From the IMG/VR virus record IMGVR_UViG_3300022221_000014, positions 1-42,269 of that record: 42,269 nt of DNA; one strand, 5' to 3'. Under the pieces are notes generated by a model that was not told the DNA's origin, searched no databases, and saw only the letters and a program-made list of their open reading frames with translations. The position numbers were made by a program, and so were the translations under genes. The stretch is from a virus. How positions within the stretch are numbered: position 1 is the stretch's first letter; every line of letters begins with the position of its first letter. Below, one piece after another: positions 3,498 through 42,070 of the stretch.

Positions 3498-3889
3498 CTG
3501 TAAAATCAAATGATATGATAAAATTTCAAGGTGTTTTCACAAAACAACTCAAGGGAGTTCAAAAAGATCTTAATGATTTTATTGAGGAGTGGGAGAGCTG
3601 TGACTTTACAGGAGAAAATGCATCTCCTGATAAGTTTATGAGCATGTTTTTTGAGCAGATCTGCTGGGTCAACGCAACTGCAGTTTGGCATAATGTCCTC
3701 CAGAGGACCCTTGACATCCTAGAGCAAGATGAGCATCAGACACTTGGGGACATCGACCTCCAGGACTTATTCATGCATGAGGCAGTGACTCTCAAAAATG
3801 AACAGATGAAAAAAATGGATGTTGATATTTACAGCTCGCCTGGCACCATCAAGAGAGAGAAAGAAAGATCTGCTAGGAGAAAGCAATGA
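3494..3889 (+). CDS. Hypothetical protein
   Basis: 131 residues; ATGA overlap with the ParB-domain gene. Mostly helical by composition, acidic in the middle, with a strongly basic tail (IKREKERSARRKQ) that could bind nucleic acid. It carries two cysteines and several tryptophans (EEWESCDF, ICWVNATAVWH). No recognisable family. It is part of the early operon, and its stop overlaps the membrane protein gene. Confidence 0.6.
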   Translation: MTVKSNDMIKFQGVFTKQLKGVQKDLNDFIEEWESCDFTGENASPDKFMSMFFEQICWVNATAVWHNVLQRTLDILEQDEHQTLGDIDLQDLFMHEAVTLKNEQMKKMDVDIYSSPGTIKREKERSARRKQ

Positions 3890-32678: not shown

Positions 32679-33272
32679 ATGTTTAGAATAGATTCAGAGG
32701 GAGCCACGGTCGGCAATAGATTCACAGAGGGAGATCCAGGTCTCTCAATTCCTGCAACAGTGGTAAGTGCAGACTGGCTCAACAGTGTGCAAGAGGAGTT
32801 GATCAAGCCAATTGAAGAGATGGGACTTGCTCTTTCCAAGCCAAGTGAGACTCAGTTTTGGGAGTCACTCCTGGAGTTCTCTTTAAGAGGTGGGAGAAAG
32901 TTGCCATTCTTAGCAACCTTGGCCAACAACACTGGGCCAGCAGATGTCTTAGACAACAATAACGCTGGGGCCGTTCTTAAAGTTGATCGGACAATCACAA
33001 AAAACAAGATCATGTTTTTTGACATTGAAAGAAAGACAGATACTCAAATTGTCAAAGAATATGGGATCTTATTTTTGTCTTACAACTCAAAGGATAATGT
33101 TTTTGAATCTCCAAAATATTTCTCCTTAAATGGAGACGCTGGAACAGTTTTCACTCTTGTTCAAATTGGAGCAACAGATGAATATAAGCTCCAATATACA
33201 ACTGGAGACTTGACTGGGACATCCTATATTGGAACACTAGACATGACATCAATAATTGAAATCAAACAATAA
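32679..33272 (+). CDS. Tail fibre-type protein (collar-like N-terminus)
   Basis: 197 residues behind AGGAGAG. The N-terminus NRFTEGDPGLSIPATVVSADWLNSVQEELIKPIEEMGLAL (in parts) is the typical fibre attachment motif: G-P---PA-VV-A-WLN-VQ-EL---I---G--L. The C-terminal ~110 residues are beta-rich. It is short for a full fibre, so it may be a connector carrying the longer secreted-type protein that follows. Confidence 0.8.
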   Translation: MFRIDSEGATVGNRFTEGDPGLSIPATVVSADWLNSVQEELIKPIEEMGLALSKPSETQFWESLLEFSLRGGRKLPFLATLANNTGPADVLDNNNAGAVLKVDRTITKNKIMFFDIERKTDTQIVKEYGILFLSYNSKDNVFESPKYFSLNGDAGTVFTLVQIGATDEYKLQYTTGDLTGTSYIGTLDMTSIIEIKQ

Positions 33273-33283
33273 CAGGAGGACCA

Positions 33284-35068
33284 ATGAAAAAATTAATTGT
33301 TTTACTTTTTTTTGGCCTAATCTTATCAACTGCCTTTGCTGCCAAGATTCTTGATAATGCTTTAATTATCAATGATCCAGGGAATGCATCTGCTGACAAG
33401 ATAATCAAATTAGGTCCTAACAGAATAATCAGATCAAATGAGACATCAGGAGAGATTGAGTTCTCCTTTGATGGAGGGACCAATTACTCAACCATGGGCT
33501 CAGGTGGCGGTGGCGGAGGTGAGAACTTCAATAATATTTTTGTTGATAGCGACAACCCGAACTCAGAGAAAGGGGAGGCAGGATGGACTGGGACAGGAGG
33601 GACTTTTGTTTCTCAGACAACTGATCCACTAGAGGGAAAGGCCTCTTTTGAATTTACTCCAGCAGCTCAAAATGATGAGAGATGCTCTGCACTTCTTGAC
33701 TTTGACAAAGATGTTGTTAAGGGTCGCTCATGTGAGGGCCGAATTGATTACATTGGAGGAGATCTCAACCTTGATCTTTTGGTTGTTGATGGGAATGGAA
33801 CAATCCTGAATCCTCTCTTTGGAACAACAACAACAGATGGCAACAACAGATCCTTGCCAGTTCATACAATAGCAGCTCCTCATTCAGTAAGTTTTTTATG
33901 TCCATCAGCAGCAGACATTGCAGGTGATTCATTAAAAGGTGATATCAAGCTTTGTGTGAAAAACGTGGGAGCATCGGCCTCTCCAATTATAAAGTGGGAT
34001 AAGTCTTATATGGGAACCTTACAAGGGCTAACCGAGACAACTACGCCCGACACGTTAACCGCAGTCATGAACGGGGTATCGTGTGCAGTAATAAGCGAAA
34101 ACGTAAGCGGATGGGTGACTTCAACAATTGACTCGGCGGTCGGGGATTGTTTTGTCGACTATTCAGGACTCGGATTGACATATACACCATCAATAAGCGC
34201 ATCTATAACATATTCAGGTGGCGTGAAATTTGCCTCTGCAAATTCTGCAACATCATCGGGAGTTTCCTTAAACTCTTTCAATGCAGTAAACACTTTAGAA
34301 GACCCGGCTCTTTACTTTATAACCTTAACAAAGCAAGAGTCAGAGGCAAAACAATCCGTTCAAGTTTATAAGTCTATTCCTAAAGTTAGTGAGAACGAGA
34401 ACGAGTTTAACATACAGCTTTCCACGACTGACACAAGCGCAACGTGCGGACAGTCAAGTGAGAATGTACCTTGGACAAACGGATGCTCCACTGCTGGGGG
34501 AACTGGTGACAATAAACTGACATTCAAATCTGGAGTCTTTACGGCTGCACCGAGGTGTTCTTGCACAGTTGAAAACGCGGGGGACAGAGAGTGTACTCTG
34601 GAGACAGCTAGCACTTACCTTGTGTATCACGTTAGAACGTCGGCAGGGACAGGGGTAAATGATACCGTTAACATTTTTTGCAGTAAATCAAAAGACGACT
34701 ACAAAAAACCAACCGTTCAACCAATAATAGTTGGTCAAGTCGTGAACTCTTACGCTGAAAATGCGAGTAAGAATGTTAGGGTTGAGAGTTGCTTGATTGC
34801 AAATTCTGGAACTCCTTCGGCGGTAGGGGGTATGTGCGCAGGATGGGTTGATTCGATTGTTGACACTGCGCTAGGCACTGCCACCGTAAATTTTAAACCA
34901 GGTATTTTTAATGGTGCTCCAGAGTGTACGTGTTCAGCGAAAACATCGGCAGGCTGGGGATGCAATCCTAATACAACACTTTCTACATCGGCATTGTTTT
35001 ATACTGTAAACTCCACTAATAATTTAGCAGATGCGGATTTTATAATAAACTGCAAGGGAGAAAGATAA
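33284..35068 (+). CDS. Signal-peptide-bearing, cysteine-rich fibre-like protein
   Basis: 594 residues behind ACAGGAGGACC. Residues 1-20 (MKKLIVLLFFGLILSTAFAA) are a clear Sec signal peptide, unexpected for a tail protein. A beta region and a GSGGGGGG linker (~71-79) follow, then a beta domain to ~245. From ~246 the codon use changes sharply (CpG-rich). The last ~220 residues hold two related ~100-residue units with repeated cysteines (GVF..APRCSC at ~415, GIFNGAPECTC at ~540, each ending in a D..IN/IFC strand), and a weaker first copy at ~265. Probably a receptor-binding or host-surface protein. Confidence 0.75.
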   Translation: MKKLIVLLFFGLILSTAFAAKILDNALIINDPGNASADKIIKLGPNRIIRSNETSGEIEFSFDGGTNYSTMGSGGGGGGENFNNIFVDSDNPNSEKGEAGWTGTGGTFVSQTTDPLEGKASFEFTPAAQNDERCSALLDFDKDVVKGRSCEGRIDYIGGDLNLDLLVVDGNGTILNPLFGTTTTDGNNRSLPVHTIAAPHSVSFLCPSAADIAGDSLKGDIKLCVKNVGASASPIIKWDKSYMGTLQGLTETTTPDTLTAVMNGVSCAVISENVSGWVTSTIDSAVGDCFVDYSGLGLTYTPSISASITYSGGVKFASANSATSSGVSLNSFNAVNTLEDPALYFITLTKQESEAKQSVQVYKSIPKVSENENEFNIQLSTTDTSATCGQSSENVPWTNGCSTAGGTGDNKLTFKSGVFTAAPRCSCTVENAGDRECTLETASTYLVYHVRTSAGTGVNDTVNIFCSKSKDDYKKPTVQPIIVGQVVNSYAENASKNVRVESCLIANSGTPSAVGGMCAGWVDSIVDTALGTATVNFKPGIFNGAPECTCSAKTSAGWGCNPNTTLSTSALFYTVNSTNNLADADFIINCKGER

Positions 35069-35069
35069 T

Positions 35070-35576
35070 ATGAAATTTTTAATTTTACTTTTAATAAGTT
35101 TTTCAGCAATGGCAAGCTACTTGCCAGAATCAAAAGTAGGAAAGAGTACCGATGGCTTGACTATTTATTCTAAAAAAGAAAAATGCGAGCAAGTTTACAG
35201 TGAGCCTTGTATTTCAATTAGAAAAACCGGAAACAATTCATTCCATAAAATTCAACCAGAAGCACAAATGAAACAAGATGTTGAATCTTGCATTGATGGA
35301 TCTGACTGCCAAGCAAAACTTGAAATTAAAGTCTGCTCACACCCAGGGGGCCAGGCCATCAAGAATCTTGACCTAATGGAGATTTATTGCACATGGACTC
35401 GAAAGAAACAAATTGTTGAGGACGCTGCCTTGAAAGCTCAATATTTATTCCAAGAAAATAAAAACAAGCAAGATAAGATTGACGCTAAAAATGCTGTAAA
35501 AGCCTTAAAAGATGAGGCAGTCTTGACAGATGCCCAGCGAGATCAAGTTCTTAAATACTTACTGGAAAAACTTTAA
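35070..35576 (+). CDS. Secreted hypothetical protein
   Basis: 168 residues; ATG 35070 directly follows the previous stop. Residues 1-15 (MKFLILLLISFSAMA) form a signal peptide with an AMA cleavage site. The mature part has six cysteines within ~85 residues (KCEQVYSEPC, ESCIDGSDC, VCSHP, YCTW), implying disulfides, then a Lys-rich helical tail of ~60 residues. Likely periplasmic, and a partner of the preceding cysteine-rich protein. No family recognised. Confidence 0.7.
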   Translation: MKFLILLLISFSAMASYLPESKVGKSTDGLTIYSKKEKCEQVYSEPCISIRKTGNNSFHKIQPEAQMKQDVESCIDGSDCQAKLEIKVCSHPGGQAIKNLDLMEIYCTWTRKKQIVEDAALKAQYLFQENKNKQDKIDAKNAVKALKDEAVLTDAQRDQVLKYLLEKL

Positions 35577-35617: not shown

Positions 35618-35842
35618 ATGACAATGAGTGACAAAGAGCTTAATGCGATAGTTAAAAATGAGATTGAGTGGAGAAAGCAGCTCTGGAAAAAACTTGAAAG
35701 CACTGAGGAAAGCCTCAATGCTTTTAAGCTGGACATGACTGAGACAACCTCAACAATGAAAGTAAAACTTGGCTTTATTGGATCCTTTTTTGGATTTATT
35801 GGTGGAGCCGTGGTTGCAATAATTGCTGCCATAATTAAATAA
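35618..35842 (+). CDS. Coiled-coil protein with C-terminal membrane helix (XhlA/holin-associated type)
   Basis: 74 residues. Residues ~5-48 are a charged helix (DKELNAIVKNEIEWRKQLWKKLE), and ~50-73 (LGFIGSFFGFIGGAVVAIIAAIIK) a single hydrophobic helix at the C-terminus. The layout is that of small holin-associated XhlA-like proteins. First gene of the lysis-type cassette upstream of the amidase. Confidence 0.7.
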   Translation: MTMSDKELNAIVKNEIEWRKQLWKKLESTEESLNAFKLDMTETTSTMKVKLGFIGSFFGFIGGAVVAIIAAIIK

Positions 35843-35856
35843 TAGGAGACTGTAAA

Positions 35857-36213
35857 ATGAACAAAGTAATTCAAATGATCTTGGGAGTGATTTCAATGAT
35901 TGCTCCTCAACTTAAAAAAGAGGACTCAACAGAGGGAATCAAAGAAACAAAAGAGATGCTTATTGGTGTCAATGAAGTTTCTCTTTCTCTTTGTGAAAAG
36001 CTAAAAGATGGAATTCAATTCCAAGATGGAGTTGAGTTTTATAATGAGCTCACAAAAGATGAAGAGTTCAAAGCAAAAGTTATTGCTGCTTATGATGGCC
36101 GTCAAAAGATTCCTGCAGAGGTCAAAGATGTTGACACAGGTGAGGGCCTGGAGCTTGTAGCAGTTCAATTGGAGTACATGCCAAAATATGTTGAAACTTT
36201 CAAAAAAGGATAA
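35857..36213 (+). CDS. Hypothetical protein of the lysis region
   Basis: 118 residues, AGGAGA before the ATG. N-terminal amphipathic/hydrophobic helix (VIQMILGVISMIAPQL), then acidic helices (STEGIKETKEMLIGVNEVSLSLCEKL) and EFYNELTKDEEFKAKVIAAYDGRQKIPAEV. No family recognised. It may be a membrane-associated partner of the holin-like neighbours. Confidence 0.6.
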   Translation: MNKVIQMILGVISMIAPQLKKEDSTEGIKETKEMLIGVNEVSLSLCEKLKDGIQFQDGVEFYNELTKDEEFKAKVIAAYDGRQKIPAEVKDVDTGEGLELVAVQLEYMPKYVETFKKG

Positions 36214-36334
36214 TCCCTTTTATAAAAGATTTTCTTTTTGGCTTAAGATGGCCTTAATATTGGGAGCATCAATTGCTCCCTTTTTTGATCCTGAGACCAG
36301 GAGAGCAATAATATTTTTAATCATAGGAGCCTAG
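36188..36334 (+). CDS. 48-residue membrane protein, holin candidate
   Basis: ATG 36188 lies inside the previous gene in another frame; the TAG at 36332-36334 directly touches the next ATG. Residues ~13-28 (FSFWLKMALILGASIAPFF) and ~38-48 (AIIFLIIGA at the end) are hydrophobic, with DNPFYKR and DPETRR as charged turns. Small size, two hydrophobic stretches and position before the amidase fit a holin or pinholin. The GGAG is 13 bases upstream, a long spacing, so translation could be coupled. Confidence 0.5.
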   Translation: MLKLSKKDNPFYKRFSFWLKMALILGASIAPFFDPETRRAIIFLIIGA

Positions 36335-36553
36335 ATGGAATATTTACTGATAGCCCTTAATCTTGCCAATGAGATCATGAAACAAATACCAGACTATGAC
36401 CAAAGAAAGAGAAAGGAATTTTATAAGAAAGTTCTCTCCCTCCAGGATGAATGGCATAAACCATATGACCAGAGAGATGATGACCTCATTCTCAATCTAA
36501 GAGATGAGCTTGGGACGTTTCTTAAAGCATTTTATAAGGAGGTTCGGCCATGA
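36335..36553 (+). CDS. Hypothetical protein of the lysis region
   Basis: 72 residues, ATG right after the preceding TAG with AGGAG five bases upstream. A slightly hydrophobic start (EYLLIALNLANEIMKQI), then a very charged helix (DQRKRKEFYKKVLSLQDEWHKPYDQRDDDLI). It could be a cytoplasmic antiholin or i-spanin-like helper, but it lacks a true transmembrane segment. ATGA overlap with the lipoprotein gene. Confidence 0.55.
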   Translation: MEYLLIALNLANEIMKQIPDYDQRKRKEFYKKVLSLQDEWHKPYDQRDDDLILNLRDELGTFLKAFYKEVRP

Positions 36554-36861
36554 GAGGCTTTTTAACTATATTCTTAGCAGTCACATTGATCACACTCATT
36601 GAGGCATGTGCAATGGGTGGAAAGTCCATCAAGCCAAGAAAGATGCAGGATAAGATGTGGCATTTATGCCAGGACTCTGAGATGCAATATCACAACAACC
36701 TGGATCCAGTTGGGAAAGTATGCAATCAGACCTGCCTTAAAAGAAAGAAAGGAAAATGTAATGAATGGCAGAGAAACATCAAGGATCTCAATAAAAAAGA
36801 GGATTTTCTTTTTTTCAGGAATGGTGCTTTTGTTCTTATTGATGAGGATCAGCTTAAGTGA
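36550..36861 (+). CDS. Small lipoprotein, o-spanin-like candidate
   Basis: 103 residues. Residues 1-19 are a hydrophobic signal (GFLTIFLAVTLITLIEA) with C20 in a lipobox-like IEAC. The mature part is small, basic and has four further cysteines (LCQDSE, VCNQTCLKRKKGKC), so disulfides are likely in the periplasm. Placement directly before the amidase suits an outer-membrane spanin subunit, although no proline-rich segment is seen. GTGA overlap with the amidase. Confidence 0.6.
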   Translation: MRGFLTIFLAVTLITLIEACAMGGKSIKPRKMQDKMWHLCQDSEMQYHNNLDPVGKVCNQTCLKRKKGKCNEWQRNIKDLNKKEDFLFFRNGAFVLIDEDQLK

Positions 36862-37313
36862 GACCAATAAACTTTCTAGTCATTCATTGTTCGGCCTCAG
36901 ACAATCCAGGAGACGATTCTCCAGAGAGGATTCACTTACTCCACACAGGCAATAAAAAGACTCCCATCATCTGGGGGAGATATCACACTCATTGCTTTGG
37001 CTGGAAAGACACAGGATATCAATTCATAATTACTCAAGACGGGGTCACTCATCGGGCCAGGCCCGTGGAGAAAGCAGGAGCCCATTGTAAGGGATTCAAC
37101 AAGACATCCATTGGGATATGCCTCACAGGTGATCAGGAGTTTACAGAGGCTCAATTTAGAGCTCTTGCGGTCCTGGTTGATAAGTTGATATTGGAGCATG
37201 ACCTGAGTATCATAGACGTAATGGGACATCGTGACCTTGATAAGACAAAGCCTTGTCCAAATTTTGATGTCCATGAAATCTTAAGAAAATATAAGGCCCA
37301 GGAAAATGATTAA
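36858..37313 (+). CDS. N-acetylmuramoyl-L-alanine amidase (T7 lysozyme-like endolysin)
   Basis: 151 residues from GTG 36858, the length of T7 lysozyme (151). Amidase_2 zinc ligands: H10 (VIHCSAS), H124 (MGHRD) and C133 (KPCPNF); catalytic K131 and Y54 (GYQF) are also present, with AGAHCKGFNKTSIGICLTGD between. It cuts the amide bond between MurNAc and L-Ala in peptidoglycan. No signal peptide, so it needs a holin. Overlaps the next gene by 8 bases. Confidence 0.93.
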   Translation: MRPINFLVIHCSASDNPGDDSPERIHLLHTGNKKTPIIWGRYHTHCFGWKDTGYQFIITQDGVTHRARPVEKAGAHCKGFNKTSIGICLTGDQEFTEAQFRALAVLVDKLILEHDLSIIDVMGHRDLDKTKPCPNFDVHEILRKYKAQEND

Positions 37314-37530
37314 TTACAGCATCCATTCACAGCTTGCTCCAATTGTGGAGAGTGTAACAGGCCAAGACCTGGAGGCAAGTTTCTATCAATCAAAGATGCT
37401 CAATGCAGAGGTCTCATCAAAAGAGATTGTCATGGAGTCGATTGATGGCCAGGCCATAGAGGCCACATTTTACATTGATGACTTAGAATATTTTTTAGAC
37501 AATACAGAAATCATAGGAGACGCATCATGA
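37306..37530 (+). CDS. Hypothetical protein
   Basis: 74 residues; ATG 37306 overlaps the amidase end. Acidic and beta-rich, with two internal echoes (DLEASFYQSKMLNAEV and AIEATFYIDDLEYFL). That internal repeat suggests a small beta structure. No family recognised; likely part of the late region's last transcript. Confidence 0.55.
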   Translation: MINYSIHSQLAPIVESVTGQDLEASFYQSKMLNAEVSSKEIVMESIDGQAIEATFYIDDLEYFLDNTEIIGDAS

Positions 37531-37874
37531 AATGCTCAGTAAAAAACTTAATCAAAATCACTCAAGGATCCAAAGAGGATGTCATCATCAGACTTTCAGA
37601 TCCAATCAGTCAGGAGCGTTTTGACCTTACTCCCTTTGAGAGTGCAAAGGCCTGCTTTAAGACAACTGCAGGAATAAAGATTGAGAAAATAATTGCATGG
37701 CCAACAGCAGAGCCAAAACTTGGAAAAATTGAATTCACTTTAGACTCAGCAGACACAGCTCAATTTGACAAAGAGATGAGGAGCTTTGAGCTTGAACTTG
37801 TTTATACTGGAGCTGCCAATAATCATATTGTTGTCCTTGAAAATGCTTTAGAAATATCAGAAAGAATTTGTTAA
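37527..37874 (+). CDS. Small Ig-like/BppU_N-like protein
   Basis: 115 residues; ATGA overlap. ITQGSKEDVIIRLSDPISQERFDLTPFESAKACFKTTAG...GKIEFTLDSADTAQFDKEMRSFELELVYTG (in parts) fits the pattern of baseplate or fibre Ig-like N-terminal domains such as BppU_N: alternate strands with a G-D--I-L-L-D---P-DLT motif. It could be a small virion surface protein. Last gene before the bidirectional terminator. Confidence 0.6.
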   Translation: MKCSVKNLIKITQGSKEDVIIRLSDPISQERFDLTPFESAKACFKTTAGIKIEKIIAWPTAEPKLGKIEFTLDSADTAQFDKEMRSFELELVYTGAANNHIVVLENALEISERIC

Positions 37875-37883
37875 AAATAAAAG

Positions 37884-37904
37884 GGCTCCATCTCTGGAGC
37901 CTTT
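37884..37904. terminator. Bidirectional intrinsic terminator of the late operon
   Basis: GGCTCC (37884-37889) and GGAGCC (37896-37901) form a stem with a 6-base loop. On the + strand TTTAATTAA follows. On the - strand the tail is CTTTTATTTTT, serving the convergent small gene at 37907-38074. It separates late from early transcription. Confidence 0.8.
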
Positions 37905-37906
37905 AA

Positions 37907-38074
37907 TTAAGAATTGATTAATGACTCAGCTCTCAAGAGCTCCTTTGTGGCCCTAACAAGATCATAAGCTGATGATGTTTTTTGTTCTGCAAGTTTTTTT
38001 GCCTCAACAATAATGTCCTCTTTAAGTTGCTCAATCCCTTTTGGCTCGGTTGATTTCTTTTTTGCTCCTGACAT
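37907..38074 (-). CDS. Small helical protein on the minus strand
   Basis: 55 residues: MSGAKKKSTEPKGIEQLKED at the start, then helical IIVEAKKLAEQKTSSAYDLV and RATKELLRAESLINS. ATG 38074 has GGAGG five bases upstream, and codon use matches the phage. A longer frame on the same strand (37933-38145) reads as noise. Convergent with the late operon and divergent from the early HTH gene, so it may be a regulator, but no DNA-binding motif is certain. Confidence 0.6.
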   Translation of the reverse strand: MSGAKKKSTEPKGIEQLKEDIIVEAKKLAEQKTSSAYDLVRATKELLRAESLINS

Positions 38075-38106
38075 GCAGTCCTCCATGTTTTGTTGATATT
38101 AATAAC

Positions 38107-38122
38107 AAGTAAGTAAAGATTA
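38107..38122 (+). promoter_or_regulatory. Shared 16-base control element, copy 2
   Basis: AAGTAAGTAAAGATTA, matching 7878-7893 in 15 of 16 positions and in the same orientation. It lies 33 bases from the minus-strand gene start, where a repressor could block that promoter. Confidence 0.55.
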
Positions 38123-38208
38123 AGTTCCAAGGACCCATCAGTCAAACATGTCTAAATGCATCAAGTTGCTTAATTTATAAGAGTTCCATAAGTTTTATCA
38201 GAAAGTTT

Positions 38209-38237
38209 TTGACACAGAATAACACTTTGAATATCTT
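38209..38237 (+). promoter_or_regulatory. Sigma70-like early promoter
   Basis: A perfect -35 TTGACA (38209-38214), a 17-base spacer and -10 TATCTT (38232-38237, 4 of 6 consensus bases). The start point would be ~30 bases before the ATG at 38272. The best-looking promoter in the genome. Confidence 0.7.
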
Positions 38238-38271
38238 TGTTTCATATTGATTCAAAAAGTATGGAGTATTA

Positions 38272-38454
38272 ATGAAAGATATTTTCAAAGTCTTAGACAG
38301 GCTTGTGAAAGAGAGAGGCATCTTACAAGTTGCAGATCTCTTGGGCCATTCTAACAGCTTAAGACTTAAAAGATGGATTGCAGCAGGCAGCATCCCAGAG
38401 TCTCAAAGAGAGGGGGTCAAAGCGATCCTGGAACTTAGAGGAGAGCTGGAATGA
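38272..38454 (+). CDS. Cro-like helix-turn-helix protein
   Basis: 60 residues, GGAG five bases upstream. A single DNA-binding fold: FKVLDRLVKERGILQVADLL, GHSNSLRLKRWIAAGSIPES (recognition helix ~28-36) and REGVKAILELRGEL. Small size and place directly behind the early promoter suggest autoregulation in the manner of Cro. Overlaps the Sak4-like gene by ATGA. Confidence 0.7.
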   Translation: MKDIFKVLDRLVKERGILQVADLLGHSNSLRLKRWIAAGSIPESQREGVKAILELRGELE

Positions 38455-39380
38455 GCATCTTTAATCAGATCACTAAAGGCAGAATTAAAAAGCCATTGTT
38501 TTGCTGCCTTTACTCAGGGCCAGGTGTTGGGAAAACTGATTTTGGATCATCTTTCCCAAAACCATTATTCTTTGACTTTGAGGAGTCAACTCACAATATT
38601 GATGTTGAGAGAATCGACAACCTCAGATCCTGGGAGGATATAATTAATGGCCTCACAGAGATCCTGGAGTCCAACACAGATCTTGGATTCAAGTCCATCA
38701 TCTTTGACACTATAGATGAGCTCGAAAGGCTTATGCATGTTTATGTTGCTCAACAGGCCAGCAAGGCAACCATTGAGCATATTGGATGGCAGAAAGGATA
38801 TGACCATGCTGTCAACTTATGGGCAGAGTTTATCTCCATCTGCAGGCAGATTAGAGATAAACATAAGATCCACTTTTGCTTTTTATGTCACTCAATTGAT
38901 AAGGCCAAGACTGAATTTGAAAAGCAAGAAACTTTTACAAGACATCAAATGAATCTGCACAAAAAAGCAGCAGCCTTTCTTTTTGGCCAGGTGGAGATGG
39001 TTCTCTTTGCAAAAAAAGAGGTCTCATTCAGGAAAGATTCTGATGGGAACACTTTTGCAAAAGACCTGGACAAGAGGGTTCTCTGTGCATCTCTCTCAGC
39101 TCATTATGATGCTAAGAACAGAGTCGGCCTGCCTGCCACAATGCCAATGCCAGTAAGAAATGGCTTTGATGTTTTATGGGGAGCTTATAACACTGCTTTT
39201 GATGAGACTCCAGATCATGCCCTTAAGAAATGCCTGGCAGCACTTGAGAAAGTAAAGGACAAAATAAAAGCTAAGAGCATTTATGAATATATCAAGAAAT
39301 TTGATCAAGACATTGCTGTCTTAAGGTCATCACTAATAAGAATCAATGAAATCATAGGAGATCAAAATGAGTCAGTATAA
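38451..39380 (+). CDS. Sak4-like RecA-fold ATPase (AAA_24), recombinase
   Basis: 309 residues. Walker A is GPGVGKTD (23-30), Walker B is IIFD (83-86) with a TIDE extension, and a sensor-like FCFLCHS lies at ~142-150. The pattern matches AAA_24/Sak4 single-strand annealing or strand-exchange proteins of phages, which work with an SSB; that gene follows with a 14-base overlap. It carries ~80 extra C-terminal helical residues. Likely role: recombination-dependent replication or end repair. Confidence 0.85.
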   Translation: MSIFNQITKGRIKKPLFCCLYSGPGVGKTDFGSSFPKPLFFDFEESTHNIDVERIDNLRSWEDIINGLTEILESNTDLGFKSIIFDTIDELERLMHVYVAQQASKATIEHIGWQKGYDHAVNLWAEFISICRQIRDKHKIHFCFLCHSIDKAKTEFEKQETFTRHQMNLHKKAAAFLFGQVEMVLFAKKEVSFRKDSDGNTFAKDLDKRVLCASLSAHYDAKNRVGLPATMPMPVRNGFDVLWGAYNTAFDETPDHALKKCLAALEKVKDKIKAKSIYEYIKKFDQDIAVLRSSLIRINEIIGDQNESV

Positions 39381-40635: not shown

Positions 40636-41396
40636 AAGTTTTAGATCTGTTTTCAGGCATTGGTGGATTTTCTCTTGGACTCGAAAAAGCAGGAATGGAG
40701 ACAGTTGCATTTTGCGAGATAGATCCTCACTGCAGCAAGGTTCTTGAAAAGCACTGGCCCAGAGTTGACAACTTTAGAGATATTAAGCAGCTCACAGGAA
40801 AATATCTCAATGGAGTTGTGGACTTAATTTGTGGAGGATATCCATGCACTGGCCATTCAGTTGCTGGACAAAAGAAAGGATTCAAAGATGAAAGATCAAA
40901 CTTATGGCTGGAATATCTTAGGCTCATTAAGGAAATTAAGCCTAGATATTGCATTATTGAAAACTCGCCTAATCTCAGGAGCACTGGAATGGGACAGCTC
41001 CTCAAAGATGTCCATGCGGTCGGGTATAATGCTGAATGGTCAATTATATCAGCTTACTCCATCGGCTCCCCTCATCAGAGGGAGAGACTTTTCATTGTAC
41101 TTTGGAGAGGAGACGTTCCCTACTGTAACCCGTTTCGACTCTGGCAGGCCGATCCTCAAAAAAAGAAAATCTCATCCAGGTGGTGGTCAGAAAGACTCTT
41201 TAAAAGATCACCTTTGTTCAAACAAGCATCAAAGATTGAATCCAGAGTTTTGCAGTTTGATGATGGGATATCCCAAGAATTATCTGAAAATGAAATTAAA
41301 ATAAAGATGCTCGGCAACAGCTTGCTCCCACAGATCCCAGAACTCATAGGGAGAGCGCTGATGGAGCATGAGAGGAGTTTATCATGCCAGGACTAG
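40632..41396 (+). CDS. C5-cytosine DNA methyltransferase (Dcm-like)
   Basis: 254 residues from TTG 40632 (TTGA overlap). Conserved motifs: I LDLFSGIGGFSLGLE (4-18); IV GGYPCTGHSVAGQ with catalytic C72; VI IEN (109-111); VIII SPHQRERLF (146-154); X GNSLLPQ (228-234). It transfers methyl from AdoMet to cytosine C5. The target-recognition region (~160-225) is short, as in other phage enzymes, and its site cannot be read from sequence. All catalytic motifs are intact. Probably protects phage DNA from host restriction. Confidence 0.92.
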   Translation: MKVLDLFSGIGGFSLGLEKAGMETVAFCEIDPHCSKVLEKHWPRVDNFRDIKQLTGKYLNGVVDLICGGYPCTGHSVAGQKKGFKDERSNLWLEYLRLIKEIKPRYCIIENSPNLRSTGMGQLLKDVHAVGYNAEWSIISAYSIGSPHQRERLFIVLWRGDVPYCNPFRLWQADPQKKKISSRWWSERLFKRSPLFKQASKIESRVLQFDDGISQELSENEIKIKMLGNSLLPQIPELIGRALMEHERSLSCQD

Positions 41397-42070
41397 TCTC
41401 ACATATCCATGAGCTCACAGGTGGGACAGAGAGAACAAGAGAGCTTTATGAGCTTGGCCTGGCCTGTGCATTGACTGCCATCAATTCTGATGAGTTTGAA
41501 TATGCTGTCAAAAATTATAAGTTCATAGATCCATATATTGGAAAGATTAGAAATGGATTTCATGAGAATAGCTACAAATATGTAAAAGTGACAGAGGATG
41601 GATTCTTTCCTCATGTAAATCTTAAAATCACCTATCTCAATAGGGCTCAAATTTATAACCTCATAATGTCTGGATGGGATAAGTATGACCAAAAGCATGA
41701 TGGAGATATGGATATTGAGGCAACCATCTTTTATAAAAGATGGAGCTCATCGGTGGGATATACTTATTCAGACCAAAGAGGGACCTGGATCAACACAAAA
41801 TTCTGGACAGGAACAGAGCTTGAAATTATTGCAAGAATTGCTGCCAATATAGTTCATGAGTACATGCACAACCTTGGCTTTGGCCATGATAGAAAATGGA
41901 ATCCTTTAAGAGATTTTACAGTTCCATATGCCATTGGAACAATTGTCCACAATATGATTCTTGGAACTCATGATCCTGATAAAAATCACACTTATATTAA
42001 ATATTTTACAAGAACGTGGAGATCTCTTTGGTTGACCAAAGAAACTAAATGGAGACGCATCAATGACTAG
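41384..42070 (+). CDS. Metzincin-motif zinc protease-like protein
   Basis: 228 residues, GAGGAG before the ATG; overlaps the methyltransferase by 13 bases and the exonuclease by 8. The motif H158-E159-YM-H162-NL-G165-FG-H168 is the full HExxHxxGxxH metzincin signature with D169 after it. M191, 23 residues later in IVHNMILG, may be the Met-turn. PYAIGTIV follows the motif. No signal peptide, unlike most metzincins, so it acts in the cytoplasm if it is active. A host-protein or defence-protein target is possible; nothing shows the substrate. Confidence 0.75.
   Translation: MPGLVSHIHELTGGTERTRELYELGLACALTAINSDEFEYAVKNYKFIDPYIGKIRNGFHENSYKYVKVTEDGFFPHVNLKITYLNRAQIYNLIMSGWDKYDQKHDGDMDIEATIFYKRWSSSVGYTYSDQRGTWINTKFWTGTELEIIARIAANIVHEYMHNLGFGHDRKWNPLRDFTVPYAIGTIVHNMILGTHDPDKNHTYIKYFTRTWRSLWLTKETKWRRIND

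Follow-up and report, generated by a model that had tools for sequence, protein, structure and literature searches.

A predicted Sec-exported, cysteine-rich fibre-like protein encoded in the tail-fibre slot of a phage and its environmental relatives

Results

A fibre-like protein with a Sec signal peptide is encoded behind a short virion anchor

The DNA analysed here (the window) is a 42,269-nucleotide viral sequence (IMG/VR record IMGVR_UViG_3300022221_000014, positions 1 to 42,269). Its + strand gene at 33284..35068 encodes a fibre-like protein of 594 amino acids with 18 mature cysteines, which is predicted to be exported. Export, paired cysteines, a jelly roll followed by repeated beta units, and the position of the gene in the fibre slot are each well supported by sequence analysis. 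We infer that the protein would act as a tail fibre, that the product of the next gene (35070) would be its partner or chaperone, and that docking would occur after lysis.

The reading frame comprises 594 codons, and its ATG lies 5 nt past a strong ribosome-binding site, AGGAGG (33274..33279, + strand). A preliminary description, made from the letters of this DNA, had assigned exactly this reading frame and a 20-residue signal peptide; both are borne out, with a cleavable-type Sec signal of 19 residues (33284..33340). The N-terminus, MKKLIVLLFFGLILSTAFA with AK directly after the predicted cleavage site (AFA/AK), is of textbook type, with a positive n-region, a hydrophobic core and small residues at −3/−1, as expected of a Sec/signal peptidase I substrate under our own rule. 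This rule is crude (charge, an uncharged hydrophobic 8-mer and small residues at −3/−1); it passes 2 of 68 ORFs in the window, namely 33284 and its neighbour 35070, and 1.4% of random stretches of the window proteome. The protein sequence showed no sign of outer-membrane targeting such as a lipobox or an autotransporter barrel.

Tail fibres normally fold, assemble and attach in the cytoplasm, and the hydrophobic N-terminus could on these grounds be no Sec signal at all but a stretch that stays, uncleaved, on a fibre assembled there. We regard this as very improbable, since every relative retains the n-h-c architecture and the small −3/−1 residues despite changes in sequence, and the paired cysteines and the adjacent second exported protein also argue against it.

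The mature protein combines a predicted jelly roll with three cysteine-rich units

Alignments delimit an N-terminal shaft-like segment (residues 21–71, 33344..33496) that is absent from two relatives (L019 and L030). It is followed by the glycine linker that had been noted before (residues 72–79, 33497..33520). The next domain, which the preliminary description did not contain, is a predicted jelly roll of the carbohydrate-binding-module (CBM) type (residues 83–247, 33530..34024) with two invariant cysteines (150 and 206), assigned from VIA-align, Foldseek and the cysteine columns. In VIA-align, the low-confidence model of this domain matched 8xmz with Z 11.8 (rmsd 2.6 over 128 residues), CBM4-2 with Z about 11, and the CBM4/22 type over a range of Z 9.7–11.8; the phage tailspike CBA120 TSP4 has the same fold (Z 10.5). 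CBM4/22-type modules, which also occur in tailspikes such as TSP4, share only about 8–18% identity with residues 83–247, and the likeness is known here by predicted fold. The best matches in a viral structure library include tail fibres; no function is shown by these folds alone.

The rest of the protein consists of three cysteine-rich units, of which "two to three" had been proposed: unit A (residues 257–349, 34052..34330), degenerate in the window protein; unit B (residues 374–467, 34403..34684); and unit C (residues 496–594, 34769..35065), which ends in CxGxR/K as in most relatives. An HMM built from unit C also matches residues 389–467 (4.7e-10) and 268–341 (1.1e-5), and a weak AlphaFold2 model (mean pLDDT 61) repeats one strand pattern three times, at 257–349, 374–467 and 498–593. 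By profile and model, the three are predicted to be homologous beta-sandwich units. The cysteine motifs reported earlier (GVF..APRCSC and GIFNGAPECTC) lie at residues 418–427 and 540–550. Units A and B are joined by a linker motif, AKQSVQVYKSIPK (residues 355–367, 34346..34384), most of which is invariant among proteins that are otherwise about 40% identical or less. The constraint acts on the protein, because the codons vary while the residues stay. Repeated beta modules and a receptor-binding-type jelly roll are domains of the fibre type, albeit at low model confidence; the protein has no Pfam or PHROG match and is filed in no named fibre family.

Cysteines are present in even numbers and change in pairs

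Mature cysteine counts in 14 family proteins are 18, 16, 18, 12, 12, 20, 14, 16, 16, 18, 12, 4, 10 and 2. All 14 are even (p 6e-5 if independent; the members are related, and the value serves as a guide only), compared with 36 of 60 other ORFs with at least 4 cysteines. The second exported proteins carry 6 or 8 mature cysteines, even in all eight that were aligned when signal-peptide cysteines are left out. Across the family, cysteine columns are gained and lost pairwise, and five pairs of columns share an identical presence pattern (366/376, 389/442, 496/506, 520/576 and 217/307). The exported protein is also rich in cysteine (3.1%) relative to the upstream structural proteins (0–1.1%).

The gene lies in a late tail-to-lysis run next to a second exported protein

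The + strand run reads baseplate J (30950), a gp48-like gene (32041), the anchor (32679), 33284, 35070, a holin-like gene (35618) and an intrinsic-terminator-like hairpin that closes the run (36262..36280), with upstream gaps of 2–12 nt. The anchor gene (32679..33272, + strand), directly upstream of 33284 in the tail module, encodes a short virion-anchor fibre with no cysteine and no signal peptide. Its N-terminus belongs to a short-tail-fibre family (phrog_2617, 1.6e-14 over residues 1–105), and its C-terminus (about 32904–33269) forms a beta domain, here called a1, whose HMM matches other phages. The second exported protein (35070..35576, + strand; 168 aa, 6 mature cysteines), likewise absent from the preliminary description, begins with the signal peptide MKFLILLLISFSAMA, followed by S, and is a possible partner or chaperone of the exported fibre. 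No fold match was found for it, and its alignment contains no stretch conserved enough for a pattern scan. The holin-like product (35618..35842, + strand) is a small membrane protein with one C-terminal hydrophobic helix and no Pfam or PHROG family match. Past the hairpin are a lipoprotein gene (36550, LIEAC) and an amidase gene (36858); a diderm host is suggested because the lipoprotein adjoins the amidase. Elsewhere in the window, 41384-42070 encodes a predicted zinc metallopeptidase-like protein (HEYMHNLGFGH motif), and an ORF of similar appearance occurs in the lysis region of the relative L004 (11104-11700).

The position in a late run bears on whether the protein benefits the host, as an adhesin made by lysogens and displayed on their surface. 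There are precedents for such lysogenic conversion: lambda Lom is exported and encoded between tail-spike and fibre genes (PMC12309495), PblA/PblB of S. mitis function on the host surface as well as in the tail (PMC7600539), and the MATs of Bdellovibrio are exported phage-fibre-like proteins (PMC10769870). Against it, the genes of the run are packed too closely for this one to have a promoter of its own, and the 26 promoter-like sites counted in the region differ little from the shuffle mean (19.3, within about 1.4 sd). Scans of GTDB contigs found no homologue of the protein either, though their exact peptide patterns could miss one. On balance, lysogenic conversion appears improbable.

The signal peptide is retained in a divergent family

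Pattern-based scans of IMG/VR yielded 15 distinct family members, of which 11 are close (the window, L002–L005, L017, L018/L019, L020, L024, L029 and L030/L033) and four distant (L036, L037, L038/L039 and L040/L041); the reading frame of L029 is broken within its contig. The proteins diverge to 27–44% identity and below. A signal peptide opens every one of the 15, and its sequence has diverged while the feature is kept; the observation is not a matter of chance. No relatives were found in Pfam, PHROGs, a PDB sequence search, or named phage and plasmid collections. The second exported protein is present in 9 of the 11 close members, all nine with the shaft segment, and is absent from the two that lack it (L019 and L030), a distribution that hints at contact between this protein and the shaft. 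In the reverse complement of L024, a small baseplate-module ORF (3640-3885) has a signal-peptide-like start, MKYLIMATLLISLNSHGALN.

In L003–L005 and in the window, the exported-fibre cassette lies within tail modules of differing composition; the sequences suggest that the cassette moves as a unit. The nearest terminase and capsid relatives of the phage are scattered over Wolbachia, Rhodobacter, Bordetella and Silvanigrella phages, so that no host is assigned, and the Silvanigrella phage gave no match to the exported fibre.

Exported proteins occupy the slot of ordinary tail fibres

In Mu-like phages, the slot after the gp48-like gene holds the same anchor N-terminus with a partner gene next to it, as in the window. 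In SfV (orf21/orf22), the gene after gp48 encodes the short tail fibre and the next one its assembly protein; in phage B23, the anchor is carried on a single 697-aa tail protein. These fibres are not exported, whereas the distal part in the window is separate, exported and cysteine-rich. In 12 other phages, HMM searches found a gene that encodes the a1 domain by itself, immediately ahead of the gene for an ordinary long tail fibre that is not exported; the exported protein therefore appears to occupy the fibre slot. In all six loci of the shaftless exported type, the anchors have four unrelated N-termini and one common C-terminal domain (40–57% identity), which linkage alone could explain. The window-type exported protein is found behind two unrelated anchor classes, and a specific docking partner is for this reason not obvious. 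The post-signal segment was also compared with the N-termini of non-exported fibres; the match was not significant (hhalign P 0.02). As in SfV, the anchor at 32679-33272 could also be a complete short fibre on its own.

Some members of a separate, classic fibre family also carry predicted signal peptides

In GenBank phage MW202898, a T7-type anchor is encoded by a gene of its own, and the next gene encodes an exported fibre of classic build. A better start, behind the RBS AAAGGAG, gives this protein the N-terminus MFNKILIAIVFIITCLNAFS, then DGN after the predicted cleavage site, followed by a classic fibre shaft and C1q-like tips; its odd cysteine count speaks against the mechanism proposed below. 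In MW202898.1, the annotated start of this gene (35733-38486, 'caprin-2 domain protein') probably lies 33 nt upstream of the true one and masks the signal peptide. About 60 distinct fibres share the MW202898 shaft, and five of them have convincing signal peptides (L051, L068, L072, L099 and L111); two further calls are marginal and L058 is doubtful. These five contain about 0.7% cysteine, compared with 0.2% in the 55 that have none (p 3e-4). The start of L051 consists of a signal peptide and 112 aa that are 50% identical to the start of the non-exported fibre L060 (E 3e-33), and apart from the signal peptide the two are collinear there. In L099 (1689-3802), an exported shaft-type fibre is directly followed by a second exported, LamG-type-lectin-like protein within a structural gene cluster.

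The slot, the anchors, MW202898 and L051 together make a fibre more likely than a passenger gene. The main rival to an exported fibre is a soluble adhesin or decoy that never enters the virion: released with the burst or reaching the cell surface, it would mask receptors on debris or on the infected cell and so prevent progeny loss or superinfection. Such a protein would also have a cleavable-type signal peptide, disulfide-type cysteine pairing and a glycan-binding fold (here predicted), could work behind unrelated anchor classes, and has a counterpart in free receptor-binding proteins, which can block adsorption (PMC12946066). However, the window protein carries neither a lipobox nor an outer-membrane barrel for surface display before lysis, its gene position predicts late expression, and it is always in the fibre slot; the co-travelling anchor domain and the L051/L060 pair point the same way. 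We therefore consider the soluble adhesin possible but rather unlikely.

Discussion

Fibres are known to join finished particles outside the cell in the case of T4 fibres and P22 tailspikes. For the phage described here, we propose that the baseplate receives its short anchor (32679-33272) in the cytoplasm, while the 33284 fibre and its small partner (35070-35576) would be exported to the periplasm, where their signal peptides would be cleaved off and their cysteines joined in disulfides. Released at or after lysis, both would meet the virions and join the anchor, probably via the a1 domain. We give this mechanism as a whole, in which a distal host-binding fibre is Sec-exported, oxidised in the periplasm and added at or after lysis, an even chance.

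The earlier proposal of an exported, fibre-like protein representing a recurring and little-known mode of fibre use is supported by the signal peptide in 15 of 15 loci and by the fibre-slot position. It had offered two modes of use. Action on the host surface before lysis is less supported, given no lipobox or barrel, late genes and no promoter room; acquisition by the virion in the periplasm or after lysis best fits the comparative evidence and is favoured because of fibre-slot synteny, co-travelling anchor domains and a signal peptide added to a collinear fibre. Neither is proven by these sequence comparisons.

PblA and PblB of S. mitis phage SM1 are not known to carry a signal peptide. These tail proteins also occur outside the virion, on the host, and are released by phage lysis (PMC7600539). 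Lom is an exported protein whose gene lies between those for tail tip and fibre, but it is an outer-membrane beta barrel and not fibre-like (PMC12309495). Lom and PblA/PblB are the nearest phage precedents that act on the host. The MATs are the nearest known exported fibre-like proteins and likewise have swappable beta-rich tips, but they are cell-encoded, whereas the window family consists of phage genes in tail operons; in the MATs, a conserved ~130-aa beta domain follows the signal peptide (PMC10769870). The S74 chaperone (PF13884) was absent from the five records searched; it occurs in 13 of 21 MATs and is thus optional there (PMC10769870). None of these systems pairs a virion anchor with a fibre part that is encoded separately and exported. 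Literature searches, of partial coverage and thus weak evidence of novelty, found no description of exported tail fibres.

Our analysis suggests that the host-binding tip is produced beyond the cytoplasm and added to the virus late, which is not expected of tailed phages. More broadly, and a little more tentatively than the mechanism itself, this phage group may build its particles in two compartments, with head, tail and anchor made in the cytoplasm and the receptor-binding fibre and its exported partner in the oxidising periplasm, the two sets of parts not meeting until lysis or later; through the acquisition of a signal peptide and cysteines, fibre families would have adopted this mode on more than one occasion. 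If this is true, exported disulfide-bonded fibres have been missed by annotation, and their exported and non-exported homologues offer a ready comparison for when and where fibres join virions. The part of the virion that binds the host would then mature outside the cell interior and might be exchanged between co-infecting phages in the lysate.
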